Shown piece after piece: positions 35,507-52,211 of a DNA stretch of 63,408 nucleotides. The notes below the pieces were generated by a model, which was given only the letters and a program-made list of their open reading frames with translations, was not told the origin of the DNA and did not search any database. The translations under genes were made by a program, and so were the position numbers. Origin of the DNA: Acidobacteriota bacterium (GTDB taxonomy: Bacteria; Acidobacteriota; UBA890; WLXD01); assembly GCA_012103255.1 (NCBI GenBank), contig WLXD01000003.1, forward strand, positions 78,576 through 141,983, given 5' to 3'. How positions within the stretch are numbered: the stretch's first letter is position 1; each line of letters begins with the position of its first letter.

Positions 35507-35881
35507 GTGGATGAACCGACGAGGCGGGAACGCGACGTTCTCGACATTCTCTACCGTGCCGAGGAAGCCACTGCGGAGGGCGTGCGGAAGGCGCTTCGGA
35601 TCAGCAACTCCGCGACGCGCACGCTTCTCGCGCGGCTCGAGGAGAAGGGACGCGTCGAACGTGTCCGCGAGGGCCGCCGCTTCATCTACCGGGCGGTTCC
35701 GCGAGTGGACACCGCCGCCCGGGACGAGGCGGACCGACTCCTTGAGGTCTTCTTCCGCCGGTCACCGCGAGCCGCGGTGCTCACCATGATGGACGCCGCA
35801 AGGGACCGCATGAGCGAGACCGAGTGGGCGTCGCTCCTCGACGAGGTCCGGCAGGCGCGGGCCGAGAAGAAAGAATCATGA
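35507..35881 (+). CDS. BlaI/MecI-family transcriptional repressor (second copy)
   Basis: 124 residues from the GTG at 35507, chosen for the GAGGTGA site 5 bases upstream. The winged helix has TRRERDVLDILYRAEEATAE, GVRKALRISNSATRTLLARL and the wing EGRRFIYRAVPRVDTAARDE. The C-terminal helix pair gives dimerisation. The stop overlaps the M56-fusion ATG (ATGA). It is a diverged paralogue of the regulator at 2575 with its own, different dyad. Confidence 0.86.
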   Translation: MDEPTRRERDVLDILYRAEEATAEGVRKALRISNSATRTLLARLEEKGRVERVREGRRFIYRAVPRVDTAARDEADRLLEVFFRRSPRAAVLTMMDAARDRMSETEWASLLDEVRQARAEKKES

Positions 35882-37782
35882 GTTTCCTTTCAACGCACTC
35901 GATGGCCGTGGTCGCTGCGCTCTTGAACACTTCGGTCAAGTTGGCGGCGATCGTCCTCGTCGCGTTCCTGGCGGCGCGCTTCGTCGCGCGCCGGGCACGC
36001 CGGCTGGAACCCTTCGTGTGGGTGACCGCTGCAACTGTTTCCCTGGTCACGCTCGTGGTCTCCGGGGCCCTCCCCGGCTGTCATCACTCGACCGCCTATC
36101 TGACCGGCAACGATGTGCATCCCCTGGAGGCGTGGTCGCTGTTGGCACACCTGTGGGCGGCCGTCGGCGTGGTGTTCGCCAGCGCGGTTGTCTTCCAGAT
36201 TGTGAGCCTCGAGTGGCGCTTCCTCCGAGCAGCCAGACCAGGAAACAGGATCGCCGCGTGCGTTGCCCGAATCCTGGCCTCCCGGAACGGCCTCCGACGA
36301 GTCGAAGTGCGGATGTCCGAGGAGATCTCGACGCCATGCACGTGGGGCGTCCTTCGCCCGCGGGTCCTGATCCCGGTCGACGCCCGACATTGGCCGCCGG
36401 AAGTCCTGGAATCGGCCGTGCGACACGAAGTCGCCCACATCGACCGAAACGACTGGCTAGCTGCGCTCTCACTCCGATTCGCCGTGGTCGCGCTGTGGTT
36501 CAACCCGTTTGTGTGGTGGCTCGAGAGGGTGGCGCGCGCCGCGCTCGAGCGCGGGGCCGATGACCGGGTGCTGCGCTCCGGAATCGGCAACGTGGACTAC
36601 GCAGAGCATCTGCTCTGGTTGCGAGCCCGCCTGGACGGGCGGCCGGCGATTGCCGCGGGACTCGCTCTACCCCTCTGGTCGGAGACTCGGTTCGCGGGGC
36701 GCGTCCGGGCGCTCCTGGCGCACCGGCCTCCTGCGCCTGTCGACGGCCGCATTGTAGGAACCCTGACCTTGGCCTTCGTCGCGTTCACCGCAGTCGTCGC
36801 GTCCCCCCCGTGGGTGGAAGCTCGCCAGTTCGCCGGCGAACGTGTGGCGAGTCGTGCCCAGGAGCGCGAGACCATCCTCGTCACCAACCGGAACAGCGAT
36901 TCGGTAACCCTTATCGACGGGGCGACCTTCGAAGTACTCACCACACTCGATGTCGGGCAGGGTCCACATGAAGTGGTGGTGCACCCGACCGGTCGTTTCG
37001 CGTACGTCTCATCCTACGACCGTCCGGAGGCGGGCGAAGATTCCATTTCGGTGAGCGTGGTCGATGTTGCGTCGCGGTCGATACGCGAGCACTTCTACGT
37101 GCCGGGACGCCGGGGGCTGCACGGCATTGCGATCTCGCGCGACGGCGACCGGTTGTGGCTGAGCGCGGAGAACGAACGCGCCGTGCTCGAACTCGATACC
37201 GCGACCGGTGCCGTGACGGCCGAGTATTCGACCGGCGGACAATGGACCCACGTCGTGGTCGCCTCGTCCGACGACGAGACCCTCTATGCGGCTGACATGG
37301 CGCGAGGCGAGGTGGCGTTCGTCGATCGGCGCACCTCCGCGGTGCGCGTCGTGTTGTCGGGAGAGGGCGCGGAGGGCATGGCTGTCTCACCGGACGGTGC
37401 GACTCTCTGGGTGGCGAATCGTGCGGAGAACACTATTGCCGTGCTCGACGCTGCGACGGGCGCACTCATCGCGAAGATCCCAACTCAGGGCGACTTCCCG
37501 GTGAAGTTGCGGTTCGCACCCGACGGCTCCGAAGTCTGGGTGGCGAACAATCGCACCAACTCCCTCGCCGTGATCTCGCCGGAGACAATGGAGGTGCTCC
37601 GGGTTGTTGGAATCCCCACCCAGCCCTTGGGGATCGGGTTCTCCACCGACGGCCGCTGGGTCCTCGTATCCGTACCCCGTCTCGATGAACTCCTCGTCGT
37701 CGATCGCGCTTCGGGCCGCCTGGAGCACCGGGTCCAGGTCGGCGCCAGCCCCGACGGAATCGCCGCCTTGAGGATCCGCTGA
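35878..37782 (+). CDS. M56 membrane metallopeptidase fused to a YVTN beta-propeller sensor
   Basis: 634 residues from the ATG at 35878. N-terminal helices include MAVVAALLNTSVKLAAIVLV and a second near 60. The zinc motif HEVAH is at 183-187, followed by ALERGADDRVL, which supplies the next ligand. A last helix (about 292-310, GTLTLAFVAFTAVVASP) leads to an extracytoplasmic YVTN propeller from about 330: ILVTNRNSDSVTLIDGATFE, GPHEVVVHPTGRFAYVSSYD, and EGMAVSPDGATLWVANR. In BlaR1 the sensor is a penicillin-binding domain; here a propeller replaces it. It is coupled to the BlaI gene. Confidence 0.82.
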   Translation: MSFLSTHSMAVVAALLNTSVKLAAIVLVAFLAARFVARRARRLEPFVWVTAATVSLVTLVVSGALPGCHHSTAYLTGNDVHPLEAWSLLAHLWAAVGVVFASAVVFQIVSLEWRFLRAARPGNRIAACVARILASRNGLRRVEVRMSEEISTPCTWGVLRPRVLIPVDARHWPPEVLESAVRHEVAHIDRNDWLAALSLRFAVVALWFNPFVWWLERVARAALERGADDRVLRSGIGNVDYAEHLLWLRARLDGRPAIAAGLALPLWSETRFAGRVRALLAHRPPAPVDGRIVGTLTLAFVAFTAVVASPPWVEARQFAGERVASRAQERETILVTNRNSDSVTLIDGATFEVLTTLDVGQGPHEVVVHPTGRFAYVSSYDRPEAGEDSISVSVVDVASRSIREHFYVPGRRGLHGIAISRDGDRLWLSAENERAVLELDTATGAVTAEYSTGGQWTHVVVASSDDETLYAADMARGEVAFVDRRTSAVRVVLSGEGAEGMAVSPDGATLWVANRAENTIAVLDAATGALIAKIPTQGDFPVKLRFAPDGSEVWVANNRTNSLAVISPETMEVLRVVGIPTQPLGIGFSTDGRWVLVSVPRLDELLVVDRASGRLEHRVQVGASPDGIAALRIR

Positions 37783-39412: not shown

Positions 39413-39463
39413 TGGCGGGCCCGACGGGATTTGAACCCGCGATCTCCGGCTTGACAGGCCGGC
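39413..39463 (-). repeat. attL-like tRNA-Asp 3' fragment
   Basis: 51 bases with 50 identical to the 3' part of the intact tRNA-Asp at 52134-52211 (from encoded CCA through the anticodon loop). The one difference (C for G at 39420) lies in the acceptor stem and would give a mismatch with the intact 5' strand. The 5' half of the gene is absent here, so this is a detached fragment left by site-specific integration. Confidence 0.85.
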
Positions 39464-39520
39464 TCTTGCAAGATTCTTAAGTGCCTATGAAGTAGCCATT
39501 TTTTGGCGGTCGCGAAATCC

Positions 39521-39552
39521 CGTGTAGCCGCCGTGTAGCCGCCGTGTAGCCG
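39521..39552. repeat. 11-bp tandem repeat next to attL
   Basis: CGTGTAGCCGC is repeated about 2.9 times, 58 bases inside the left att repeat. Short repeats in this position can be arm-type integrase binding sites; each unit also puts TAG stops in successive frames. Confidence 0.55.
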
Positions 39553-39659
39553 AAGACGATAGCCCTGTCGGCCAGGCTCGGTCCACTCGATACCTCGCAA
39601 AAGCTCCCGTCGAGGTGTTCTTGCAGCAGGGTGGGCTAGCCACGGTAAGGAGCACGTCG

Positions 39660-40241
39660 ATGGCAGAGCAGAACGATCGTCTCACTGATGAACTGGAGTA
39701 CGAATATCCGTTAGAGGCGCCCTACTCCCTGGAGGGCATCCCGGTCGAGGAAGTCGAGGGCGACGAACTGGACGTCGAAGAAGTAGTCGCCGACCTCAAC
39801 ACGTTCGTATCTGAGGCAGACGTCGGGCGAGGCGAGGGGGCTGATGCAGAGAGCCTAGTCGGTGTCGCAAGGGCAGGTGAGAACGCCCACGGCACGTGGG
39901 GCACGATCTGGGTCTGGAACGGTTCGAAGTGGGTTCGGAGGGGATTCACTTTGGAACCGCGGTCCAGTGTCGGCAAAGGACCCATTCCGCTAGGCGTCTA
40001 TCGCTTCCGGCGCTGGGTATCGAAGAAACTAGGGAAGACACTCAGATTGGCCAACGTCCCGGGCTTCACGGACATCCTGGTACACGTTGGCAACGTCCAA
40101 TCCGAGACGGCTGGCTGTATCTTGGCCGCCAAGAAAGTCGATAGCACCAAGAACCCGCGCCGGCTCATCGACAGCCGCTCGCTGACCGACTGGCTGTACG
40201 ACAACTGCCCTGCCGGCCGGATCAAGATCATCAACGTGTAG
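39660..40241 (+). CDS. DUF5675-like protein
   Basis: 193 residues from an ATG with TAAGGAG upstream. The N-terminal third is acidic and low complexity (LEYEYPLEAPYSLEGIPVEE). The C-terminal part fits DUF5675: PIPLGVYRFRRWVSKKLGKT, LRLANVPGFTDILVHVGN, and SETAGCILAAKK. The conserved His and Cys in HVGN...GCIL recall L,D-transpeptidase- or peptidoglycan-active phage proteins, which is only a family resemblance. It is the first island gene after attL and is followed by a large inverted repeat. Confidence 0.7.
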   Translation: MAEQNDRLTDELEYEYPLEAPYSLEGIPVEEVEGDELDVEEVVADLNTFVSEADVGRGEGADAESLVGVARAGENAHGTWGTIWVWNGSKWVRRGFTLEPRSSVGKGPIPLGVYRFRRWVSKKLGKTLRLANVPGFTDILVHVGNVQSETAGCILAAKKVDSTKNPRRLIDSRSLTDWLYDNCPAGRIKIINV

Positions 40242-40250
40242 GTCGGGTCG

Positions 40251-40299
40251 CCGATCAACGAGCCCGCCGCTAAAAGCCGCGGGCGGGCGCGTTGATCGG
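40251..40299 (+). terminator. Large inverted repeat after the DUF5675 gene
   Basis: CCGATCAACG (40251-40260) pairs with CGTTGATCGG (40290-40299), and the inner GC-rich arms also pair in part. It begins 10 bases after the stop. No clear T-tract follows, so it may be a terminator or simply an RNA-stabilising hairpin. Confidence 0.45.
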
Positions 40300-40764
40300 A
40301 GCCCAGGGCGAGGTTCGCACGCTGCCGCTAGCCCCCGTCACGCCACACCCCGACAGGCGGATCGAACCGTGCAGACCGACAAGATTGGGATCGCGTGAGC
40401 TACATGGCCGCGACACTGCGTTCGAAGTCACCGGCTAGAGCGCTTCAGTCGTCGGCAGTTAGCCATCCGGCGCGCCCGCGGGTAATCAGGACGTCGGGCG
40501 AACTCTGCCACCTGTCAGTATCAGGACGTCGTTGATGCAGTCAACAACGCGACGGGGAAGTCGGTCTGCAAGAAACATTGGCGGGCATAAGAAACACATC
40601 CACCAGGACACCCACTAGTCACACGCGTGACCGTGGACGGCGCTGGTGGGCGTTCGAGTTCTTGGCGTGGATTCGGTCCGTGCGACGCGCGCGAGGCAAA
40701 GCCACGGAGCGCCGGGCAAAGACCTTGAGACAAGGCGCCAGAGCTAGGGACGCACGGCGGACGT
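40300..40764. other. Intergenic region without a convincing gene
   Basis: About 465 bases between the DUF5675 hairpin and the end of the JAMM gene. Short frames exist on both strands but have no ribosome-binding site, no recognisable domain and mixed codon use. I see no repeat or RNA in it. Confidence 0.5.
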
Positions 40765-41229
40765 CTACCTGGACTCCGCGCCGATCTCGACGGTGACCTC
40801 GACGAGGTCATCAAGCGGGTCTCGTTCGTACGCTCGCACTTGGACGCCACCAGACAGCCCAACGACAAGGTGCACGCAGTCCCATCGGGACGAGAAGTGC
40901 TTGTCAATCTCCGAGAAGCCGGCGTCTCCGTTGGGATGAGAATGATAGATGGCGACGATGTATTCCCCGGCTGCTGCGATCTCCTGTTCTGCGACGAATT
41001 GCGCATGCGGGTCCGCCAGGAACCGGCAGGTTGCGTCTGTGGCGACGTTCGGCAAGGGATGGCAGCGCGTCGCGATCCGCAACTCCTGCCCAGAAAGCAG
41101 ACCCACGGTTTCTAGCGGAGCCGCAGCCCGCGCCTCGCGTACGACCTCAAGTGCCGTCGCAGCTTCGATGCGGAGCCTACGCAGGGAGGTACACCATGTG
41201 GGCCGGCTCTGGCCGAAAATGGCTGTCAC
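40765..41229 (-). CDS. JAMM/MPN-domain (Mov34/PAD-1) metallopeptidase
   Basis: 154 residues from a GTG. The full JAMM signature is present: Glu40 in LETVGLLSG, then H96-S-H98, seven residues, S106, two residues, D109. Bacterial JAMM proteins cleave isopeptide-like bonds on ubiquitin-like (ThiS/MoaD/CysO-type) proteins or adducts, often in defence islands. Here no E1/E2 or ubiquitin-like gene is adjacent. The start lies 53 bases inside the upstream carotenoid-oxygenase-like gene, so translation is likely coupled. It is the last gene of the operon. Confidence 0.85.
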   Translation of the reverse strand: MTAIFGQSRPTWCTSLRRLRIEAATALEVVREARAAAPLETVGLLSGQELRIATRCHPLPNVATDATCRFLADPHAQFVAEQEIAAAGEYIVAIYHSHPNGDAGFSEIDKHFSSRWDCVHLVVGLSGGVQVRAYERDPLDDLVEVTVEIGAESR

Positions 41230-42709
41230 CCCAGGTCAGGAGTTCGGCGGACACCGCATGCGCGACCATGCGCGTGAGGTCATCGGCTCGATATAGCCGC
41301 AGCCCTATCTCTGGCGAGAAGGTGGCGACATGGTCGCGACCCTTCTCACCGGCGATCATCGAGAATGCCATGGGCTCCGAGTAGCTGATGTGGGATCGTG
41401 CGGCGTCATAGTCCACCTTGAGGTCCCGCGAGTCGAACCGGATCAACGCGGACGGCACGTAGCGGATCTGCGAGTAGTCCGGAGTGATCCGCTCGTACGC
41501 CGCTGCGATGTGCCGTGGAAGTAGGCGCGGCTCGAATCCGGCGAACGAGCCGAACAGGCGCTCGCCGGTTGAATCCAACCCGAGGTTGATTGGAAGCCAC
41601 GAATGTCCAAGCGAAGCGTTTCCGTAGTCGTACGAGCGAGAGAACGTCTTCAGACTCGAGGTTCCCCCGCGTCGCTCGTAGCGGATCACGGTGCCGAAGT
41701 TCAGCGGTTGCGTTATGGCGCCGGAGTAGTGCTCCGCGACCTCCTGGGGACTCTCTGAGTAGACATTCGGACCGTGAGTCTCCTCGGAGACGTCGGCTTG
41801 CTTGTAGTTCGCAAACAGCACGAAACCATCGCCCGAACTGTTGCTCACCTCCAGATGGGACAGCGCTATCCCTTCAAGAGCATCGAGACCGGGTAAGAGC
41901 TCGGCTTGCAGTGAATTCTGACTCTCGTCGATACGAACTGTCCAGATAGATGAGAAAGGCATCGGAAGCACGGAGTGCTCCTCGTCACTATCGTGCGCGT
42001 CGAGTGACTCGAGCACCGCGCCCGTCCTGAGGAGACCCACGTAGCGGGCGCCGTTCTCTTCGAAATAGAACGCGGAGTGGAAGTTTGCGCTGCATCGCTC
42101 GCTATCCTCAGGCGGTGGTTGCAACTTCCACGAGCGCACGTCTCCCGACTTGGTGTCCAATCCAAGCAGCCTCAGGTCGTCTGCTTCGACGGGCCGGCCT
42201 GCTTGTTCTCTGCGTAGCAGCGACTGATGGAAGTAGGCGCAGCGGTGGTCCAGATCCCAGGCGAAGTGAGACGTAGAACTGATCTGCGGCGCCCCCGGTT
42301 CGGGGACGCAGGACGCAATCACCCTCGAGGCGCGGAACTCCTCCAGGTCGATCTCTAGCGGCGCTCCGAACAAGAGATTTGTCGTCCAGACATGGGAACC
42401 TGCGACGTTGATCCCGTGGTTCGGCTGAGTGATATACCTGGAATAGGAGCCGTGGGCGAGATCGATGTCTGCCGGCCACAGGTAGCCGACGTCTCTTCCA
42501 GAGGGATCGACGTCGAGGAACGTGGCCCGGACTCGGCCCGGGCGACCAGGGCGAAGTTCGATACGCAATAACTCTGCCTGAGAGTCGTGCCATCGCCGGA
42601 AGACGCTACGGGCTTTCGCCCTTCGGGACGTTGCGACCAGTAGCGATCCCGCTGCGTCCTCCGGGATTTCTCCTCGAACGAACAGCTCAACTTGTTGGTG
42701 CGCTGTCAC
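41177..42709 (-). CDS. Divergent carotenoid-oxygenase (RPE65/CCD) superfamily-like protein
   Basis: 510 residues from the GTG at 42709, with TAGGG upstream and 10 bases after the preceding stop. The N-terminus VELFVRGEIPEDAAGSLLVA mirrors the family's V-x-G-x-IP-x-x-L-x-G start; QPNHGINVAGSHVW and LEIDLEEF recall the PNTNVV and PYELDP segments. Four His stand at family-like spacing: H148 (TSHFAWD), H211 (NFHSAF), H285 (LSHLEV) and H504 (EPAHMVY), which could bind Fe(II). Substrate and reaction are unknown. Linkage to a JAMM peptidase is unusual. Confidence 0.55.
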   Translation of the reverse strand: MTAHQQVELFVRGEIPEDAAGSLLVATSRRAKARSVFRRWHDSQAELLRIELRPGRPGRVRATFLDVDPSGRDVGYLWPADIDLAHGSYSRYITQPNHGINVAGSHVWTTNLLFGAPLEIDLEEFRASRVIASCVPEPGAPQISSTSHFAWDLDHRCAYFHQSLLRREQAGRPVEADDLRLLGLDTKSGDVRSWKLQPPPEDSERCSANFHSAFYFEENGARYVGLLRTGAVLESLDAHDSDEEHSVLPMPFSSIWTVRIDESQNSLQAELLPGLDALEGIALSHLEVSNSSGDGFVLFANYKQADVSEETHGPNVYSESPQEVAEHYSGAITQPLNFGTVIRYERRGGTSSLKTFSRSYDYGNASLGHSWLPINLGLDSTGERLFGSFAGFEPRLLPRHIAAAYERITPDYSQIRYVPSALIRFDSRDLKVDYDAARSHISYSEPMAFSMIAGEKGRDHVATFSPEIGLRLYRADDLTRMVAHAVSAELLTWGDSHFRPEPAHMVYLPA

Positions 42710-42719
42710 ACTGCGCGCC

Positions 42720-43550
42720 CTAGCTAGCCTTTTCCTCGTCCACGCCAGGCCCCCGGACTGCCTGCTTCTGTGCGACACCCGCAAACCTACGCATGTAGTA
42801 GTGCTGCCCGAACAAGAACAACTCGCCCTCCGCTTGGAGGTCCAAGTAGGGATGCGACACCGTCGTCGGGGTGGTCGTCAGCAGCGTTTCCACGTGGATC
42901 GTGTCCTTCCGGAGCCCTCCGTAGAGAGGCTTGTCCATCCATTCGATGGCCGTCGTGGGGAAGCTCAGGCTCATGCAGCGAGCTTGCATGACGGCCGGTC
43001 GAGCCAGGTCCTTCGATGGGAAGGTAGGGGCGTAGCTGTAGTTCTGGACGATATTGCCCGCAGCGAAGTTCCGGACCATGTGCTCCAGCGTCGTTGGAAA
43101 GCATCCAGCGTCGTGCACGAGTAGCCATTCGACCATCTGGCGCAGCGTATAAAACACCCCATAGTTGAAGAACTCGACCCTCTGAATCGGGTCCAACTTC
43201 TCAAACTCGACCAGATCGTACAGCCCTTTCGAGCCGAGCTGGTTATGTACCTCGTCAATGACGGTCGAATCCGTGATCTGGATCCGAGAGTCGGATGGGA
43301 TTGGCCCCATGAGATTGAACTGATTGCCCACCCCAGCCATGACCAGCCTTCCCAGGCGGGTCATACGTTTCCCATCGAAGATGTGCACCAAGTCCTTGGC
43401 AACGACATCGGCGGCGTTGTCCTTGGCAAACACCTCTGGCAGGGCGCTAAAGTCCCAACTCTTGCTCTCCAGATGTTCGACTTTCTCGGTGACGTCTTTG
43501 AGGATCGACGCGAATTCTGGCCCTCCAACGGAGGCCCGGCGAATCGCCAT
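42720..43550 (-). CDS. Unknown cytoplasmic protein, first gene of the JAMM/oxygenase-like operon
   Basis: 276 residues, no signal peptide and no transmembrane segment. Features seen: an N-terminal helical part with DVTEKVEHLESKSWDFSALP, a strand-rich middle with NQFNLMGPIPSDSRIQITDS, and a C-terminal HPYLDLQAEGELFLFGQHYY. I recognise no domain. Only 10 bases separate it from the oxygenase-like gene, so co-function with that protein and the JAMM peptidase is inferred from the operon only. Confidence 0.65.
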   Translation of the reverse strand: MAIRRASVGGPEFASILKDVTEKVEHLESKSWDFSALPEVFAKDNAADVVAKDLVHIFDGKRMTRLGRLVMAGVGNQFNLMGPIPSDSRIQITDSTVIDEVHNQLGSKGLYDLVEFEKLDPIQRVEFFNYGVFYTLRQMVEWLLVHDAGCFPTTLEHMVRNFAAGNIVQNYSYAPTFPSKDLARPAVMQARCMSLSFPTTAIEWMDKPLYGGLRKDTIHVETLLTTTPTTVSHPYLDLQAEGELFLFGQHYYMRRFAGVAQKQAVRGPGVDEEKAS

Positions 43551-44190
43551 TCAATATTGCCAGCCCCCTGCGATCGGGCGGTACTCAGATCTCAGCCAGT
43601 CTCGATACGCGGTCATCCTTCAACCTCCGGCCATACGGTTCCATGTGCTTACTTAAGGAAACCGTCCAAAGCTGGTTTTTCGAGGGGCACTCGAGAAAAA
43701 CCGAGACCTTCTGTCAGTGACCGCCGCCAGAACGCTGGTGAGCGAGAGGTTTCCGACGCGATTCAGCGGCACATCGGACGAACACACGGAGGCGGCACGG
43801 CGGCTACACAGCTCCTCCTGGACCTCAGCATTCACCGTGTTCATCGAGAATCGCGGTCTTGTGGCGTACGGCTGCGTAGGCCGGAATTCGCGTACCTCTG
43901 CACCAGGTGAGTGCGCTACAGCTACGCTCGTTCCTTCCGGCCTGTGGCGTGTCGATACCTAGCTAGATTCCACGAACAGCGATTTCTAGCTTCGCGACCT
44001 CTTCTAGCCCATAGCCCGGAGGCCACAGCTTCAAATCCTGTCCCCTCTACTCCGAAGGCCCCGTCGTGCCGCGCTTCCCGCGGCAGCGGCGGGCGCTATT
44101 CGCGTCCGTACGCTGAGGCTCCGGGCGCGGGCCACGACTAGCTCGAGGCGAGCGGCCGCGCTACGGGCCGCCAAGGACGTCTCTGAGGCT
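43551..44190. other. Long intergenic region in the island
   Basis: About 640 bases upstream of the three-gene operon. The promoter of that operon must lie here. Short frames on both strands look random. The only structured element is a tRNA-3'-like fragment near 44014-44054. Confidence 0.5.
44014..44054 (+). other. Possible decayed tRNA 3' end
   Basis: GCCCGGAGGCCACAG-CTTCAAATC-CTGTCCCCTCTACTCC resembles a variable loop, T-arm and acceptor 3' strand, but the T-stem has a C-C mismatch and there is no 5' half. It may be an older att remnant, suggesting a composite island. Confidence 0.25.
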
Positions 44191-44979
44191 CTAGAGGATA
44201 TCGATCTTGATGTTCGTACCGTTTGTAAGGTCGGTCGGTGTGATCTTCCCGTTCTCGATCAGCGCCTTGAGGACATCCGGCGTGACGTGCACACCGTGTT
44301 CCCTAAGCTGTTCGAGCGCCAACTCGGAGGCTTCCAGCGCCTGTTCCTTCAGCTTGACGTCCATCTTGGAGTGTTCGACATAGTTCCTGGTCCACTGCCC
44401 AAGGATCGTGAGCGCGTAGAGAGCCGCGACACCGCCCCAAAAGGCCAACGTTAGCGAGACCGGTGACGCTTGCTGGAGTTCGTCCACGTAGACTCCAGAT
44501 CCTGAGAGCCCAATGCGTGGACGCCGGCGTGCAGTCGTCCCAGTTCTCGCGACGTTGACGAAGACTTGCCTCAGCTCGCCGTACCCGAGGGCCGTCGGCG
44601 AAACAGCGGCAGTAATCACCCCGTGAGCCAACTCGGTGAGGGAATCTCTGTGTCGCATCACGAGGTCGCGCCGGTAGTCGACCTCGTGGCTCCCGAAGGT
44701 CCACTGATGCTTAGGAACTCTTTGCTCCGGCTCGTAGAGTACCTCGGCCCGCCCAGCGCTCAGTTGAGATCGAAGCCAATCGAACCTCGCCGAGTTGATT
44801 TCGGCGGACACGAAGCCCCGCACGAAGAGCCCATCGAGCTCGCGAGCGCTGAGATCTGACACCAGGCTGACGGCCTGGTCACGAGCCAGATTGGCTTGAT
44901 AGAGCCAGAGTCCGTTCAGAAACGCGAGCATATTCAAGGTCCCTAGCACCATGTCCGCGTCGCGCTCGGCGAAGGTCAT
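44191..44979 (-). CDS. Single-pass membrane protein of unknown function
   Basis: 262 residues. A short hydrophobic stretch lies near the start (MLAFLNGLWLYQANLA) and a clear helix near 185-205 (SLTLAFWGGVAALYALTILG), followed by a cytoplasmic helical tail with KLKEQALEASELALEQLREH. The C-terminus ends in a strand NGTNIKIDIL. No family is recognised. It lies in the island between the JAMM operon and the DUF4238 gene. Confidence 0.6.
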   Translation of the reverse strand: MTFAERDADMVLGTLNMLAFLNGLWLYQANLARDQAVSLVSDLSARELDGLFVRGFVSAEINSARFDWLRSQLSAGRAEVLYEPEQRVPKHQWTFGSHEVDYRRDLVMRHRDSLTELAHGVITAAVSPTALGYGELRQVFVNVARTGTTARRRPRIGLSGSGVYVDELQQASPVSLTLAFWGGVAALYALTILGQWTRNYVEHSKMDVKLKEQALEASELALEQLREHGVHVTPDVLKALIENGKITPTDLTNGTNIKIDIL

Positions 44980-44997
44980 GCGAAGTTCGAACGGCAG

Positions 44998-45060
44998 TTA
45001 CCGAAAGACCTTCCGGTGCTCGAGCTCCGGAGGGCCTTTGTCGTCGTAGTAGGTCGTCAT
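44998..45060 (-). CDS. Possible 20-residue leader peptide
   Basis: An ATG at 45060 opens a 20-codon frame (MTTYYDDKGPPELEHRKVFR) that stops 18 bases before the start of the membrane-protein gene. It has a GAGAG upstream. It could be a leader, a small protein or chance. Confidence 0.25.
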   Translation of the reverse strand: MTTYYDDKGPPELEHRKVFR

Positions 45061-45404
45061 CAGATACTCTCGTTCGCCGCGCGGCTTTTCGGCCAGCGAT
45101 CAATGGTCCGGTCGTGCCGATGGTCGGCCGCAGCCGGCTACCGGAAACAACCATGATTGGGTCGGAATTGCGACCCGGGAGCGCTACCGCGAATGCAGCC
45201 GTGTCGGATGTGGACCCAGCCACCCGAGCAGGTCGGTCTCACCAGCCCGTACGCCTGGACACGGGTTTAGAGACCCGAGCGTGCCCGCAGCTGGAGGACG
45301 GGCCCTACCTTGGGAGACTCGCAATGGGCTACGTGGCCGCCGCCTCGGCTGACAATGACGATTGTCGAATGCTGGCTCGCTAACACCGCATTCGATCGGC
45401 TAGC
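44998..45404. other. Intergenic region upstream of the membrane-protein gene
   Basis: About 400 bases with no convincing long gene. Besides the short frame at 44998-45060, frames on both strands lack domains and ribosome-binding sites. Confidence 0.45.
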
Positions 45405-45875
45405 CTACGTCTCGAAACAGGGGCTGCCGTTCACTATGAGGCCGGGGTCGCCTGAAACTAGCAACGCCTCCTTCGCCCGGCAGCTGAGGGGCGAGCCGTC
45501 TAGAAACGTAGCGCGAGGTAAGAGATTGAACGTGAACATCCCGCGAGCAGCCGGAGTTCGGACGAGTAGCGTGGCGATGAAGGCCCTAAGTTCGTGACCC
45601 TCGCGTGCGGTGATGACTTCTCCGCGCCGCGCTCGTGCAATCACCGGTGCTGCGGCGGACTCGATGGCTCCAAGTACAAGTTCAGCACCTTCAGGGTGAT
45701 CCCCGCCTTCGACATCCGCGTCTATGGCGTAGAAGTCGCGGCGCACGGCGGCGTTGCGCGGGCTGACCTGGAACGTACCGCCCGTCTCCAAGTCGTGTGC
45801 CCACAAGGCTCCGTCGTGTCGAAAGCCATCCAGATAGAAGGAAGGCAAGACATGATGCCGTCGTGCGGTGGCCAT
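45405..45875 (-). CDS. DUF4238-like protein, shorter than usual
   Basis: 156 residues from the ATG at 45875; upstream codons in the frame have no homology texture. The N-terminus RRHHVLPSFYLDGFRHDG is the HH-x3-FYL-x-GF start of DUF4238, followed by LWAHDLETGGTFQVSPRNAA and AFIATLLVRTPAARGMF. The family is usually 250-350 residues, so the C-terminal part appears missing. DUF4238 proteins occur in defence-rich islands; function is unknown. Confidence 0.7.
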   Translation of the reverse strand: MATARRHHVLPSFYLDGFRHDGALWAHDLETGGTFQVSPRNAAVRRDFYAIDADVEGGDHPEGAELVLGAIESAAAPVIARARRGEVITAREGHELRAFIATLLVRTPAARGMFTFNLLPRATFLDGSPLSCRAKEALLVSGDPGLIVNGSPCFET

Positions 45876-45985
45876 GGATTCGAGTCTACATGCCTCGTAG
45901 CGGGGATGAGCCGCTCGTGCGAATTGCTGCGGCGGACCTTCAAGCACAACGTTCTGAGGTAGTCGAACTCTCACCGGGGTCGGTG

Positions 45986-46011
45986 ATAAGCCCTTTGTTC
46001 ATCGGGCTTAT
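45986..46011. repeat. 8-bp inverted repeat
   Basis: ATAAGCCC (45986-45993) and GGGCTTAT (46004-46011) flank a 10-base loop, in the gap between the DUF4238 gene and the 369-residue membrane protein. No T-tract; a weak terminator or operator. Confidence 0.4.
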
Positions 46012-46216
46012 GTGACTTGGTGTTTTGTGTTGATTCGGACAACATCAGTCTGGACCGGTCGTTTTGAGGGCAGGTTGGTACCGTTTTGGTACCTATTGAA
46101 GGTCCCAAGTGACGCGGGTCCGAGGTAGCGGCGGAGTGCCCTGGGACTCGGCTCGGTTAGGCCTATGCACCGCATTCCTGGCGTGCCTCGGTTCACTCCA
46201 CCACGAGCCTAGCCTG

Positions 46217-47326
46217 TCACGTCTTGCTGTAACTCGATGTCCGCAACCGCCAGGGCAATCTCAGCCATGGCTGAGCCCTAAAGAGGATATGAAACTCGAC
46301 GGCGTACGCGCCAGGCGGGAGATCGAGAGGCGCCGTCAATCCGAACCTGCCCTGGACACCTGAACTCCCAACTGCGTTGTATTCGTGAACGGAATCGGCC
46401 ACCGTCAAGCCCGGCGCACTCACGCTGAGTGTTACGTCCAGGGCGACCGAATCACCGTTGTGGAGGAGCCCGTAGGCGACCTCTGCGTGAGTGCCACGAT
46501 TCAATACGAGCGGCTCGGGGAGGTCGAGCTTCATTCGGGTGGCTACTAGCATGCTGTCGGCTGTTGGGGCGAAGCTAACCAACATAGCGGTAAGCATCAA
46601 AGGTAGCTGAAGCACTACGATGCTCTTAATGGATGTGTGCTTCCATCGCGTGCGGAACCACTTCACGGCTCGGCTCTGGGTGAAGAAATCGAAACGAATC
46701 AGGAAATACGCGGAGCCCGCCGCCGCGAGGGCGAGCGCGAGGATGGAGTAGTTCTGCGTCGTGGATAGGCGGTCGCTAACCCACAGCCCGATGATGATCG
46801 GCAGCGACCAAAAGACGATGCGCAGCGGAACGCGGACCCGAGCGCTGCCTTCATCAAGGTTCAGTCGTTCTGTGATCTCGCCAAGCTCGGCTATGAGCAC
46901 CCGCAGTTCCCCCGTGGCGCCAGGTCCATCCATGGACTCGCCTTCGGGCACAGACGCCCGGATCCGCTGAATGGCTGCAAGGTGCGGAGCGCGTTCGCCA
47001 AACCAGAACGGCCCGCTGACCCTCCGCTCAAGTTGTTGCGTTGCCACCTGCACCGCTTCGTGCAACAGCCCCCGCCTTGTTTGGCGTAGCTCCTCGGAGA
47101 GCGCGCCGAGGCGCTTCCTGCTTGCCTCTCCGGGCTCAATCGCGAGGCTTTTGAGTCGCTCCATGTAGCGCGCTGCGAGGCGTTCGGTGCGCTCTCTGAG
47201 AAGTCCATCAAGCTGGGGAGCGAGTGCGAGGATGTTCGAACTGTCTTCGCGCAGGCCGTCGAAGGCATCGTTCACTTGTTGTACTAGTAGGGCAGTCTTC
47301 GGAAGAGCTTCTTCGGTCGTTCCCAC
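46217..47326 (-). CDS. Membrane protein with coiled-coil N-terminus and extracytoplasmic tail
   Basis: 369 residues from the GTG at 47326, chosen for a perfect AGGAGG six bases upstream. The N-terminal 170 residues are helical (LLVQQVNDAFDGLREDSSNI, LSEELRQTRRGLLHEAVQVA). Three hydrophobic helices follow (IVFWSLPIIIGLWV, SILALALAAAGSAYFL and VVLQLPLMLTAMLVSF), and then a beta-rich domain of about 100 residues with EVAYGLLHNGDSVALDVTLS. The family is unknown. It is divergent from the TrlF-like ATPase gene. Confidence 0.6.
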   Translation of the reverse strand: MGTTEEALPKTALLVQQVNDAFDGLREDSSNILALAPQLDGLLRERTERLAARYMERLKSLAIEPGEASRKRLGALSEELRQTRRGLLHEAVQVATQQLERRVSGPFWFGERAPHLAAIQRIRASVPEGESMDGPGATGELRVLIAELGEITERLNLDEGSARVRVPLRIVFWSLPIIIGLWVSDRLSTTQNYSILALALAAAGSAYFLIRFDFFTQSRAVKWFRTRWKHTSIKSIVVLQLPLMLTAMLVSFAPTADSMLVATRMKLDLPEPLVLNRGTHAEVAYGLLHNGDSVALDVTLSVSAPGLTVADSVHEYNAVGSSGVQGRFGLTAPLDLPPGAYAVEFHILFRAQPWLRLPWRLRTSSYSKT

Positions 47327-48008
47327 AGCGATCCTCCTGACGGATGATACCGGTCCGCACCTTAACCGACTTGACCGCGCCAATGCGATCCCCCGCCGAG
47401 GGAAGTAGCCGCGCACCGTCGATGCCGTGGCATGGGCAGGTCACGCGTCGACGGACTGCTAGTAGAGACGGGGGAGCCTCCCCTCAGCCAGCAAAGCTGC
47501 TAGCTCAAACGCCCCCAACCCCCTTGCTAGCAACGTTGCTAGCTGGAACGGCCCAAAATCCCCGTGGAAACTCTTGCGTAGATGCCGACACGGATTGGTG
47601 GGTCTTTTCTGGTCATTTGAACGGTGTCCGAAAAGGGTAGTGAAAAAGCGCCCCGTTTGAGCGCGCAAACATTGACTCTTGGGTTGGCGTTTCGAGTGTC
47701 TTTTTAGGATTACCTTTATGGACAATCACCGAGCGCGCTTGGCGCGGTTCCGCCCCCTGCCTCTCCACTGCAGGCCGGATTCGTGCTCGACAATCATCAG
47801 GACTTCCGCGGCCATCGTGCCGTGGTCCACGCCGGTCTGCATCGAGCAATTTCGGAATCCGGTCGGTCTCGAGGTTCTCCTCCGTGGAGTGCTCGGACGA
47901 CCATCCCACAACCTAGTTGCCGGATCGTGACCTGAAACGACACTCGGGGGCCCGTCGGGCGGGTGTGGCAGTCTCTCCGAAACAAGGGGACCAACGCGAG
48001 GAGTCGGA
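47327..48008. other. Long divergent intergenic region with GCTAGC repeats
   Basis: About 680 bases between the membrane protein and the TrlF-like gene. It must hold both promoters. GCTAGC palindromes occur at 47499, 47526 and 47538, the last two within a TTGCTAGC-AACG-TTGCTAGC direct repeat. No convincing gene is seen. Confidence 0.5.
47499..47543. repeat. Three GCTAGC palindromes
   Basis: GCTAGC at 47499-47504, 47526-47531 and 47538-47543, with extended TTGCTAGC identity between the last two. Possible regulator binding cluster. Confidence 0.45.
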
Positions 48009-50993
48009 ATGACAAAGAGCCTCAAGCTGGGCTCGATATGGCATCGATGGGATCCGCACCTTCATGGGCCAGGCACGCTCATGAACGACCAGTTCAGGGG
48101 CGATGACCCGTGGGGCGAGTACTTCGACGCGATCGAAGCCGCCGACCCGCCGATCAAAGCGCTTGGGATCACGGACTACTACCTCACCGACGCGTATGAG
48201 CACGTGGTCAAGGCGACCAAGGCAGGGAGGCTCAGCGGGGTCGAGTTGGTATTCCCCAACGTCGAATGTCGTCTCGACGTAGGGACCGGTAAAGGAAAGT
48301 GGGTCAACGTCCATCTCCTGGTCAGCCCTGAACAGCACGATCACCTCCTCGAACTAGGTCGGTTCATGGCACGCCTTAGCTTCCGGGCGCATGACGACGA
48401 GTTTGCCTGCAAGCCAGAGGAACTGATTAGGCTTGGTAAGGCGGCCGATAGCTCCATCACGGATGATCGTGTTGCACTGCGGCACGGTGCCGGCCAATTC
48501 AAAGTGAGTTTCGATCAGCTGCGAGAGGAATTCGACAAGTCCGGTTGGGCGCGCCGAAACCTGATAGTTGCAGTGGCGGGGAGCAGCACGGATGGAACGT
48601 CCGGAGTGCGGTCTCCCGCCGACACGACGATCCGTGAAGAAGTTGAGAAGTTTGCCTCGGTCATTTTCGCAAGCAGCCGAGCACAGCGAGACTTCTGGTT
48701 GGGACGTGGCAACGTCAGCATCGAACAGCTATGGCAGCGCTACGATGGTCCGAAGCCGTGCTTGCATGGCTGTGACTGCCACCGTCAGCCCAGTGTCGCC
48801 GCTCCAGATGACTCGCGGTACTGCTGGGTAAAGGGTAGGGTCGACTTCGACTCGCTTCGACAGGCCTGCATCGATCCGGAGAATCGTGCCTTCGTCGATG
48901 CGAACCCGCCTGGCGCCGGTCTCCCGTCCCAGTCCATCGCCGCGGTCACGATTGCGCGTGCAGACTGGGTCGTAACGCCCGCCCTGGCCCTAAATCCGGG
49001 CCTCGTCGCCGTGATCGGACCACGTGGCTCGGGCAAGACCGCGCTGGCCGACATCATTGCGATGGGAGCCGACGCGATTCGAGAGCGTCCTGCCGCTAGC
49101 ACGACATATCCGAGTTCGTCCTTTCTCGCTCGAGCAGGAACGCTCGTAGGAGATGCGGAAGTCACTCTGGAATGGCGGTCGGGCGAGGTATCCGAACGCG
49201 CTTTGGACGGCACGAAGACACCAGAGGTCGCGTATCCGCGGGTGAGGTACTTATCCCAACAGTTTGTAGAGGAGTTGTGTTCCGCGACCGGTGTTACAGA
49301 TGAACTACTGCGCGAAATCGAACGCGTGGTGTTCGAATCACATCCCGTCGGCGAACAGGGTGGCGCGCTGGACTTCGGCGAACTCCTTGAACTGCGGGCT
49401 TCCCGGCACCGAGCTTCCCGACAGCGCGACGAGCAAGCAATTGCGACGCTCTCCGAACGGATCGGAACCGAACTCGAGAGAGATCGGGAGCTGCCCGGTC
49501 TTGAGCGCGCCGTGGTCCAGAAGAGCAAACAAATCGAGAGGTTGGACAAAGACCGGGCCAAGTTGGTGTCGAAAGGGGCCGAAGCGCGAGCCAGTCGGCT
49601 CACGGAGGTGGCAACGGCGGCAGAAAAGGTGCGAGGCCATGTCCGGAGACTCTCGAATCAAGAACAAGCGTTGCTCGCTCTACAGGATGAGGTCCGAGAT
49701 CTGCGGCAGAACACTGCCCCGGAGATGTTGCGTGAGTCCAAGGAACGCCACGCAGCGAGTCAGATGAACCCTCAGGAATGGGAAACGTTCAAGATCGACT
49801 ACACCGGGGATGTCGACGCACAAATCAGCCTGCTCCTCGACAAGTCGCGCGAATTGGCCCAGGCCAGGAAAGGCGTCGCGCCGCCTTCGGACTCCCCCGA
49901 GAAACCCCTCGATGAGATGGGGGAAGAGCTCACGAAGATCCCTCTGGCGCGCCTAGAAACAGAGATCAACCAACTTCAGCTGCAAATCAACGCGGACTCG
50001 GCAGCACAGCGGCAGTTTGCCGCGCTGACAAAGAGGATCGCTGCAGACTCCGCGGCGCTTCAGCAACTCGAAGCGAAGCGCGAGGAAGCCAAGGGAGCCA
50101 AGGAGCGTGCCAAGCAACTCCAGGTGGAGCGTGAGCGAGCGTACCAACGCGTGTTCGAGGCGATCGTGGCGGAAGAGCAGGTTCTCAAAGACCTGTACGC
50201 GCCCGTAGTCCAACGCGTACAGGAGGCCTCGGGAACGCTAGGGAAGCTGACCTTCACAGTCTCGCGCACAGCGGACGTAAGCGGCTGGTCACGTGTTGCG
50301 GAGCAGGAACTTTTGGACTTGCGGCGCCAGGGACCCTTCAAAGGATCGGGGCAGTTCGAGGCCCTGGCCGAGGCAGCGCTCAAGCAAGCCTGGGAACAAG
50401 GAGACGCATCTCAGGTGGCAGAGGCCATGCGGGTTTTCAGGAACAGCTACCAAGGAGACTTACTGGAGCACGCGAACGTGCATCCGAGCGGTCAGCCCGA
50501 GTACCGCGCTTGGTTGAAGAGCTTCGCTGGCTGGTTGTTTTCGACGTCGCACATCGAGCTGGCATACGGCATCAGCTACGAGGGAGTGGATATTCGGAAG
50601 CTGTCACCGGGCACTCGCGGCATCGTCTTGTTGCTGCTCTATCTCGCCCTGGACGATACCGACGACCGGCCGTTGATCATCGATCAGCCTGAGGAGAACC
50701 TCGATCCCAAGTCTGTCTTCGACGAGTTGGTGGGACTCTTCATTGCCGTCAAGGCCAGGCGGCAGGTCATCATCGTGACGCACAACGCCAACCTAGTCGT
50801 AAACACCGACGCGGACCAGATAATCGTAGCGAGCTGCGGTCCGCACGCCGCCGGAGAACTACCTCCCATCTCGTACGACGTAGGAGGAATCGAGGAGAGC
50901 GCGATTCGAACCGCAGTCTGCGACGTCCTGGAGGGCGGCGAGCACGCGTTTAGGGAGCGCGCGCGCCGACTCCGAGTCCACCTGCGCCGCTAG
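48009..50993 (+). CDS. TrlF-like protein: PHP-type N-terminus plus SMC-like AAA/ABC ATPase
   Basis: 994 residues. The N-terminus has PHP-phosphoesterase-like elements: WDPHLHGPGT, ALGITDYYLTDAY and VNVHLLVSP. The ATPase follows: Walker A GPRGSGKT at 337-344, a long coiled coil (about 460-720), then KLSPGTRGIVLLLLYLALDD as the signature region, Walker B PLIIDQPEENLD near 885-897 and the switch VTHNANLVV. This is the OLD/SMC-like arrangement used by many anti-phage ATPases, here with a possible nuclease or phosphoesterase head. It probably forms a pair with the next gene. Confidence 0.85.
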   Translation: MTKSLKLGSIWHRWDPHLHGPGTLMNDQFRGDDPWGEYFDAIEAADPPIKALGITDYYLTDAYEHVVKATKAGRLSGVELVFPNVECRLDVGTGKGKWVNVHLLVSPEQHDHLLELGRFMARLSFRAHDDEFACKPEELIRLGKAADSSITDDRVALRHGAGQFKVSFDQLREEFDKSGWARRNLIVAVAGSSTDGTSGVRSPADTTIREEVEKFASVIFASSRAQRDFWLGRGNVSIEQLWQRYDGPKPCLHGCDCHRQPSVAAPDDSRYCWVKGRVDFDSLRQACIDPENRAFVDANPPGAGLPSQSIAAVTIARADWVVTPALALNPGLVAVIGPRGSGKTALADIIAMGADAIRERPAASTTYPSSSFLARAGTLVGDAEVTLEWRSGEVSERALDGTKTPEVAYPRVRYLSQQFVEELCSATGVTDELLREIERVVFESHPVGEQGGALDFGELLELRASRHRASRQRDEQAIATLSERIGTELERDRELPGLERAVVQKSKQIERLDKDRAKLVSKGAEARASRLTEVATAAEKVRGHVRRLSNQEQALLALQDEVRDLRQNTAPEMLRESKERHAASQMNPQEWETFKIDYTGDVDAQISLLLDKSRELAQARKGVAPPSDSPEKPLDEMGEELTKIPLARLETEINQLQLQINADSAAQRQFAALTKRIAADSAALQQLEAKREEAKGAKERAKQLQVERERAYQRVFEAIVAEEQVLKDLYAPVVQRVQEASGTLGKLTFTVSRTADVSGWSRVAEQELLDLRRQGPFKGSGQFEALAEAALKQAWEQGDASQVAEAMRVFRNSYQGDLLEHANVHPSGQPEYRAWLKSFAGWLFSTSHIELAYGISYEGVDIRKLSPGTRGIVLLLLYLALDDTDDRPLIIDQPEENLDPKSVFDELVGLFIAVKARRQVIIVTHNANLVVNTDADQIIVASCGPHAAGELPPISYDVGGIEESAIRTAVCDVLEGGEHAFRERARRLRVHLRR

Positions 50994-51112
50994 GAACAGT
51001 CTTGGACGCGGGTTCCAGACAAGCGCCTGGGGCGGATCCGCTTCAGCGCGGTTCCGGTTTCTCGCAGACTGGGTCCAGTGCGCTACCACCTCACGGACAA
51101 TCGCTTCACAAG

Positions 51113-52201
51113 ATGACAAAACCCGCGTCGGAGTCAGAGGTCTACCTTCAGAGGATCGCTCGGGACTCGTTCTTGACGCTGTGGGGCTACCCGAACCTAT
51201 TCCGCGATCAGGGCATCGCGGCGCGGAGAGAGGGAAAGGAGCTAGTTGACCTCGCAGTCGTGTTCGGGAACATAGTCATCTTGTTCTCAGACAAGAGCTG
51301 CGCTTTTCCCGGCTCCGGCGACCTCGACCGAGACTGGGCTCGTTGGTATCGGAGAGCAATCAAGAAGTCGGCTGAGCAGCTCTGGGGAGCCGAGCGCTGG
51401 ATCCGTGACCATTCCGATCGCGTCTTCGTGGCCCCCCGCTGCGAAACCCGAATTCCAATCCGCCTTCCGGCAGCAGATGCCGTTGCGTTCCACCGCGTCG
51501 TAGTTGCGCGTGATGCGACAGGCCTGCGCGCGAGAGCAACAGGTGGAAGCGGCAGCCTGGTCATCCGTCCGTCGATCGAGGGCGATGAGCACGTAAGACC
51601 GAGGTCCGAAGGTGGTGAGCGGTTCGCCGTAGGCCAGGTGGACTCGTCGCGAGGACTGATTCATGTCCTGGACGAGGTGTCGCTGGATCTTGTCCTGCGC
51701 ACGCTCGACACAGTTACCGACTTCTGTGCGTACTTGGCGCGCAAGGAGAACTTCATTGTCTCCGGAAGGTTGCACGGGTCGGCGGGCGAGGAAGACCTGC
51801 TTGGGTACTATTTTCGGGGTCTCGGGCCTGATGGCCACCACGACTTCACCCTTCCCGACGGAGCCGACCAACTGTGGGTTCAGGAAGGAAACTGGGAACG
51901 CTACGCAGAGAGCCCGGAACGGGAAGCGCAAGTCGCGGCCGATCAAGTCAGCTATGTGTGGGACGACATCATTGAGCGATTCACCGTCCATAAGATCCGA
52001 GGCACACACGATTTCGACAGCGGCCAAGGCCTCGCTGAAACGGAGGTGGTGTTCCGCCTCCTCGCGCGCGAATCACGTGCGGACGCAAAAACGCCGGAAA
52101 CCCAAAGCTTTGAAGGGTTTCCGGCGGATTTAATGGCGGGGCCGACGGGATTTGAACCCGCGATCTCCGGCTTGACAGGCCGGCGTCGTAACCAGGCTTG
52201 A
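51113..52201 (+). CDS. Nuclease-like protein, 3' end cut off at the island border
   Basis: The frame is 362 codons from the ATG at 51113. The N-terminus LTLWGYPNLFRDQGIAARRE, GKELVDLAVVFGNIVILFSD is a pattern I associate with restriction-endonuclease-like proteins of defence islands; a PD-(D/E)xK site is inferred, not proven. After RLLARESR (about 52,080) the frame crosses the tRNA terminator hairpin and the antisense of tRNA-Asp, so the last 40 residues are not native. The gene is probably truncated. It follows the TrlF-like gene by 119 bases. Confidence 0.6.
   Translation: MTKPASESEVYLQRIARDSFLTLWGYPNLFRDQGIAARREGKELVDLAVVFGNIVILFSDKSCAFPGSGDLDRDWARWYRRAIKKSAEQLWGAERWIRDHSDRVFVAPRCETRIPIRLPAADAVAFHRVVVARDATGLRARATGGSGSLVIRPSIEGDEHVRPRSEGGERFAVGQVDSSRGLIHVLDEVSLDLVLRTLDTVTDFCAYLARKENFIVSGRLHGSAGEEDLLGYYFRGLGPDGHHDFTLPDGADQLWVQEGNWERYAESPEREAQVAADQVSYVWDDIIERFTVHKIRGTHDFDSGQGLAETEVVFRLLARESRADAKTPETQSFEGFPADLMAGPTGFEPAISGLTGRRRNQA
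52087..52126 (-). terminator. Strong terminator of the tRNA-Val/tRNA-Asp transcript
   Basis: A perfect 12-bp stem (CGCCGGAAACCC / GGGTTTCCGGCG) with an 11-base loop, followed on the minus strand by TTTTT. It is 8 bases beyond the tRNA-Asp CCA. Confidence 0.85.
52134..52184 (-). repeat. attR-like repeat within tRNA-Asp
   Basis: The 3' 51 bases of tRNA-Asp, repeated at 39413-39463 with one mismatch. The identity runs from the CCA through the anticodon loop into the 5' anticodon stem. Confidence 0.85.
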
Positions 52202-52211
52202 CCACGGCCCC
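52134..52211 (-). tRNA. tRNA-Asp (GTC)
   Basis: Reads as a full cloverleaf: acceptor GGGGCCG/CGGCCCC with discriminator G and encoded CCA, anticodon arm GCCGG-CCTGTCAAG-CCGG with anticodon GTC, and T-loop TTCAAAT. It serves as the integration site of the island. Confidence 0.93.

Follow-up and report, generated by a model that had tools for sequence, protein, structure and literature searches.

How should one read three adjacent acidobacterial genes that encode, in turn, a protein of no known family, a predicted relative of carotenoid cleavage oxygenases (CCDs), and a JAMM metallopeptidase: as a chance arrangement, or as a functional unit, and in the latter case, of what kind? The genes are located in the window analyzed here, i.e., the whole stretch of 63,408 nucleotides of contig WLXD01000003.1, and were compared with curated protein families, predicted structures, and other bacterial genomes.

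Organization, distribution, and genomic location of the trio

All three genes lie on the minus strand with intact reading frames. Gene 1 (42720..43550) encodes an orphan protein of 276 amino acids (aa), gene 2 (41177..42709) a predicted divergent CCD-like beta-propeller protein of 510 aa, and gene 3 (40765..41229) a Prok-JAB/JAMM (M67-like) metallopeptidase of 154 aa; genes 2 and 3 use GTG start codons. The tight spacing noted in an earlier, sequence-only reading of this DNA agrees with the open reading frame (ORF) coordinates, with a gap of 10 bases (42719-42710) between genes 1 and 2 and an overlap of 53 bases (41177-41229) between genes 2 and 3. The mechanically defined ORF of gene 2 opens at TTG 42784; GTG 42709 was taken as the start, which is supported by a homolog from a member of the Pyrinomonadaceae, since that protein begins at the same point.

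This homolog was the only relative returned when short peptide patterns of protein 2 were sought across 84,980 species genomes (metagenome-assembled genome, contig JACMLC010000007.1). The scan reaches close relatives only, and more distant copies may therefore exist in other phyla. The Pyrinomonadaceae genome belongs to the same phylum as the window genome (Acidobacteriota) and to a different family. Its contig starts 444 bases upstream of the gene 1 homolog (L027:445-1284), which encodes a 279-aa protein and is followed, after a gap of 17 bases, by a gene encoding a 516-aa protein and, immediately downstream, by a gene encoding a 153-aa JAMM protein. Identity between the two loci amounts to 57% for protein 1, 57% for protein 2, and 34% for the JAMM protein. 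The earlier reading would have been undermined had the three genes never co-occurred elsewhere; instead, an independent genome of another family carries all of them in the same order and orientation, which argues that the operon is more than a chance arrangement. The trio is thus probably one real unit, a co-inherited accessory cassette that is rare and mobile.

No third locus with genes 1 and 2 was found in the other Acidobacteriota genomes searched, including congeners and members of the same family, and the distribution of the trio, known from two loci only, is therefore rare and sporadic. Three weak Acidobacteriota matches (E about 0.004-0.01) were rejected, as they cover 50-90 residues and contain an internal stop. 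Searches of IMG/VR viral contigs, plasmids, and phages returned no close relatives.

In the window genome, the trio sits on an inserted, putative tRNA-Asp-integrated genomic island (39413..52184), identified by a copy of the tRNA-Asp 3' end and a drop in GC content. The intact tRNA-Asp(gtc) gene occupies 52134..52211 on the minus strand, and its 3'-terminal 51 nt (52134-52184) constitute the right repeat, which is 98% identical to the 51-nt direct repeat at 39413..39463, the putative left end of the island. A direct repeat of a tRNA 3' end bounding an insert is a classical signature of integration at the 3' end of a tRNA gene. The island encompasses 12.7 kb, and its GC content is about 0.60-0.62 compared to 0.64-0.67 in the flanks. 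Pfam scans of the island ORFs revealed no integrase, and a single search for the island flanks in relatives gave no syntenic match.

The first gene inside the island (39615-40241, plus strand) encodes a DUF5675 protein (PF18925, 5.1e-18). Other recognized genes encode a DUF4238 protein (45405..45974, minus strand; Pfam 2.9e-17, PADLOC DUF4238-Pers 2.5e-7) and a TrlF-family AAA-like ATPase (48009..50993, plus strand; NF045780, 5.6e-198, above the cut-off), the latter being a possible defense gene; the island also contains three unrecognized ORFs. Among the island proteins scanned, no E1 (ThiF-like), E2, or ubiquitin-like protein was detected, nor was a CD-NTase gene found on the island. At the island end, an ORF with a RDSFLTLWGYPNLFRDQ...GKELVDL...FSDK stretch (51002-52201) runs into the tRNA-Asp gene; it looks nuclease-like by eye, and searches of Pfam, NCBIfam, and PADLOC gave no match. 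Just inside the left end, three tandem GTGTAGCCGCC-like units are present (39520-39555), and their inverted partner lies upstream of gene 1 (43784-43812). Outside the island, at 35824-37782, a part resembling M56/BlaR1 metallopeptidases (HEVAHIDRNDW) appears by eye to be fused to a YVTN-type beta-propeller. In the Pyrinomonadaceae genome, a PIN/VapC-like protein (L044:4285-4704; weak TIGR00028 match, E 0.028) is encoded downstream of the trio, together with a large protein that reads as a secreted protease.

Characteristics of the three proteins

The gene 3 product matches PF14464 (Prok-JAB) with E 6.7e-18 and 65.1 bits against a cut-off of 25. The complete E...HxH-x7-S-x2-D site described earlier is borne out, as none of its residues (E40, H96-S-H98, S106, and D109) is missing and the Pyrinomonadaceae homolog retains them all. 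By profile comparison, the protein also resembles PDB 2kks and Pyrococcus JAMM1; the score for the desampylase family NF041370 (65.1 bits) was below the NCBIfam cut-off of 130, and JAB matches in PADLOC were only marginal. In a tree of 21 Acidobacteriota JAMM proteins, the two trio proteins are sisters with moderate support (92/74), a placement that is not firm because one of the branches is long. Neither gene 1 nor gene 2 was found within the 1.5-kb flanks of the other Acidobacteriota JAMM genes, and the neighbors of one JAMM gene near the trio clade (L026) are unrelated. Bacterial JAMM proteins hydrolyze ubiquitin-like fusions or conjugates, such as the MoaD-MoaE fusion in Deinococcus (PMC8832034).

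Protein 1 contains the conserved blocks LLxHDxGCFPxTLEHM, IEWMDKPL, and IHVETLL. It showed no significant match in Pfam, NCBIfam, PADLOC, or PDB sequences, its best PHROGs match was at chance level (E 0.34), and its AlphaFold model, built from a shallow alignment, matched no PDB fold below E = 2. The description of this protein as unrecognized thus extends to all the resources searched, and by sequence it represents an orphan, previously undescribed family.

As judged from a predicted structure, protein 2 probably belongs to the carotenoid cleavage oxygenase superfamily as a remote member with a CCD-type fold. Its AlphaFold model, built from two sequences, is poor (mean pLDDT 40, pTM 0.45). 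A Foldseek search with this model nevertheless yielded only CCDs, RPE65, or stilbene/aromatic oxygenases among the 50 listed PDB matches (50/50; E 3.3e-7 to about 1e-4, probability 0.99-1.00, 300-590 alignment columns), with TM-scores of only 0.22-0.37. These structural neighbors include lignostilbene, resveratrol, and apocarotenoid oxygenases, and other propeller families are absent among the 50. The equally shallow model of protein 1, which matches nothing, serves as an internal negative control for these fold matches.

At the sequence level, the support for a CCD assignment is weak. Using a reference alignment of 13 genuine CCDs, hhalign placed the N-terminus of protein 2 in register with the CCD N-terminus (E 9e-4, probability 23%), with a score of 35.6 that none of 300 column shuffles equaled (0/300; highest 29.3) and that compares with 14.5 for the reversed profile. 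Protein 2 did not match Pfam PF03055 (RPE65) even at E = 10, gave no significant match in NCBIfam, PADLOC, or PDB sequences, and reached 7.5 bits in hmmsearch with our own 13-CCD profile, no better than one unrelated ORF. Of the earlier description as a divergent CCD-like protein, the fold is likely, whereas a match to the Pfam family is absent; a non-CCD fold, which would have spoken against it, is not what the shallow, low-confidence model suggests.

CCDs hold Fe(II) by four histidines and three second-sphere glutamates within a seven-bladed propeller (PMC4879150). Protein 2 is probably also a seven-bladed propeller, and a site that holds Fe(II) by four histidines is plausible in it. The four family-spaced histidines proposed earlier, H148, H211, H285, and H504, are present and kept in the Pyrinomonadaceae homolog, and their spacing of 63/74/219 is of the same order as that in the 13 CCDs (47-55/62-106/169-191). 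However, they belong to 16 histidines conserved between the two sequences, and in a motif-context test this quartet came only 59th of 1820 ordered quartets (zero-based rank 58), with negative scores around all four residues, which makes spacing alone weak evidence; we rejected it as proof of CCD identity. Alignments place some of the residues in register: H148 pairs with CCD His1 in a forced global profile alignment and in two of three MAFFT modes, whereas H504 with CCD His4 and E445 (SEPMAF) with the third CCD glutamate (EPxFVP motif) pair in the global profile alignment and in all MAFFT modes. H211 and H285 were not recovered as His2 and His3 by profile or MAFFT alignments and fit by eye and spacing; the fourth candidate ligand may be H504 or H497, both conserved. 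The position of the first second-shell glutamate is occupied by L113, and the second such glutamate, inspected by eye, is probably replaced as well.

Possible function of the cassette

The explanation that we favor combines these assignments. Protein 2 would cleave or isomerize a C=C bond in a small hydrophobic or aromatic substrate, and protein 1 may act in the same step or complex, being placed with protein 2 because the two are equally strongly conserved (57% each). The bond hydrolyzed by the JAMM protein would be of the peptide, isopeptide, or amide type and would be located on the substrate, its product, or a carrier protein. Together, they would make, release, or remove a modified molecule, and the cassette would spread by horizontal transfer. 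The steps beyond the CCD-type fold and the JAMM site are those that we infer, and the explanation as a whole, comprising this mechanism and the three genes of fixed order in two Acidobacteriota as one co-inherited accessory cassette, has in our estimate an even chance of being correct. The more ambitious version, in which a mobile system of a CCD-fold iron enzyme, the protein 1 family, and a JAMM protease attaches, matures, or removes an oxidized small-molecule or protein modification, possibly in phage defense, appears improbable to us.

The alternative that survives best, and that deserves serious weight while falling short of an even chance, assigns the trio to accessory catabolism or biosynthesis by cleavage of the lignostilbene or apocarotenoid kind. 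The JAMM protein would then serve as an amidase or peptidase for a conjugated substrate, and neither protein modification nor defense would be involved. Soil Acidobacteriota handle aromatic compounds, and the lignostilbene, resveratrol, and apocarotenoid oxygenases among the structural neighbors of protein 2 are consistent with such chemistry; however, the recognized neighbors of the trio include no transporter, dehydrogenase, or further gene of a pathway at either locus, and the context of the candidate ligands is unlike that in known CCDs.

Anti-phage defense is an unlikely alternative in which an infection signal would prompt the CCD-like enzyme to produce or degrade a small molecule, while the JAMM protein would activate or deactivate protein 1 by proteolysis. 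The sporadic distribution and the location on a tRNA-Asp-bounded island with the TrlF-family ATPase and the DUF4238 protein argue for it, and JAB proteins are present in CBASS type II (PMC10097602). The neighboring genes make a defense role possible, but this context is not repeated at the second locus, where no defense gene was clearly recognized and only the PIN-like protein is nearby. In addition, proteins 1 and 2 matched nothing in PADLOC, where the JAB matches of gene 3 were only marginal, and the searches of plasmids, phages, and viral contigs yielded no homologs. The lack of E1, E2, and ubiquitin-like genes on the island disfavors a self-contained conjugation system, and a plain E1-E2-JAB system was rejected on this ground. 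Thus, of the new modification or defense pathway suggested by the sequence-only reading, a defense or protein-modification role of the trio is possible, whereas the partners of a conjugation pathway were not detected among the island proteins scanned.

It seems about equally unlikely that protein 2 belongs to a different class of beta-propeller and is a scaffold that lacks the CCD iron site and resembles CCDs only in generic propeller features. The low confidence of its model, the missing Pfam match, and the negative motif-context scores at all four histidines are compatible with this possibility; against it are the absence of other propeller families among the 50 listed PDB matches and the in-register N-terminal CCD signature, which outscored all 300 shuffles. 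Least likely of all is that function resides in genes 1 and 2 as a pair, with the JAMM gene only loosely attached to them: its 34% identity is far below the 57% of its partners, but it is adjacent or overlapping at both loci, and the JAMM proteins of the two loci group as sisters with moderate support.

Under the favored explanation, this finding represents a new, rare, and mobile gene set in which an orphan family is combined with a very divergent family of CCD-like proteins. Curated families match neither protein 1 nor protein 2, yet the gene order is conserved and the DNA is mobile. In agreement with the earlier statement that no described system with these three genes is known, none is named in PADLOC or in the literature searched, and no paper that connects carotenoid oxygenases to JAMM/JAB domains came up in the literature search. 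Should protein 2 prove to be an active enzyme with a CCD fold, the superfamily would reach well beyond what Pfam captures, and the protein would provide the first link, within the scope searched, between a CCD and a JAMM hydrolase and offer a testable entry into a new pathway.

Comparison with known systems

With CBASS type II and other E1-E2-JAB systems, the trio shares a JAB/JAMM gene on a possible defense island, but the E1, E2, ubiquitin-like, and CD-NTase components of those systems were not found here. Similarly, the gene 3 product resembles Prok-JAB/M67 proteins (desampylase, Mec-like, DRJAMM) in its PF14464 match and complete JAMM site, whereas the ECCG cysteine pair common in its relatives is missing and no MoaD/ThiS-type partner is encoded nearby. 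Protein 2 differs from the CCD/RPE65 superfamily (PF03055) in its missing Pfam match, in the apparent replacement of the first and second second-shell glutamates, in His2 and His3, which lack alignment confirmation, and in operon partners unlike those of CCDs. Nonetheless, it shares with this superfamily the Foldseek matches, an N-terminal GxIPxxxxGSL segment, a histidine spacing of the same order, and H148, E445, and H504 in register.
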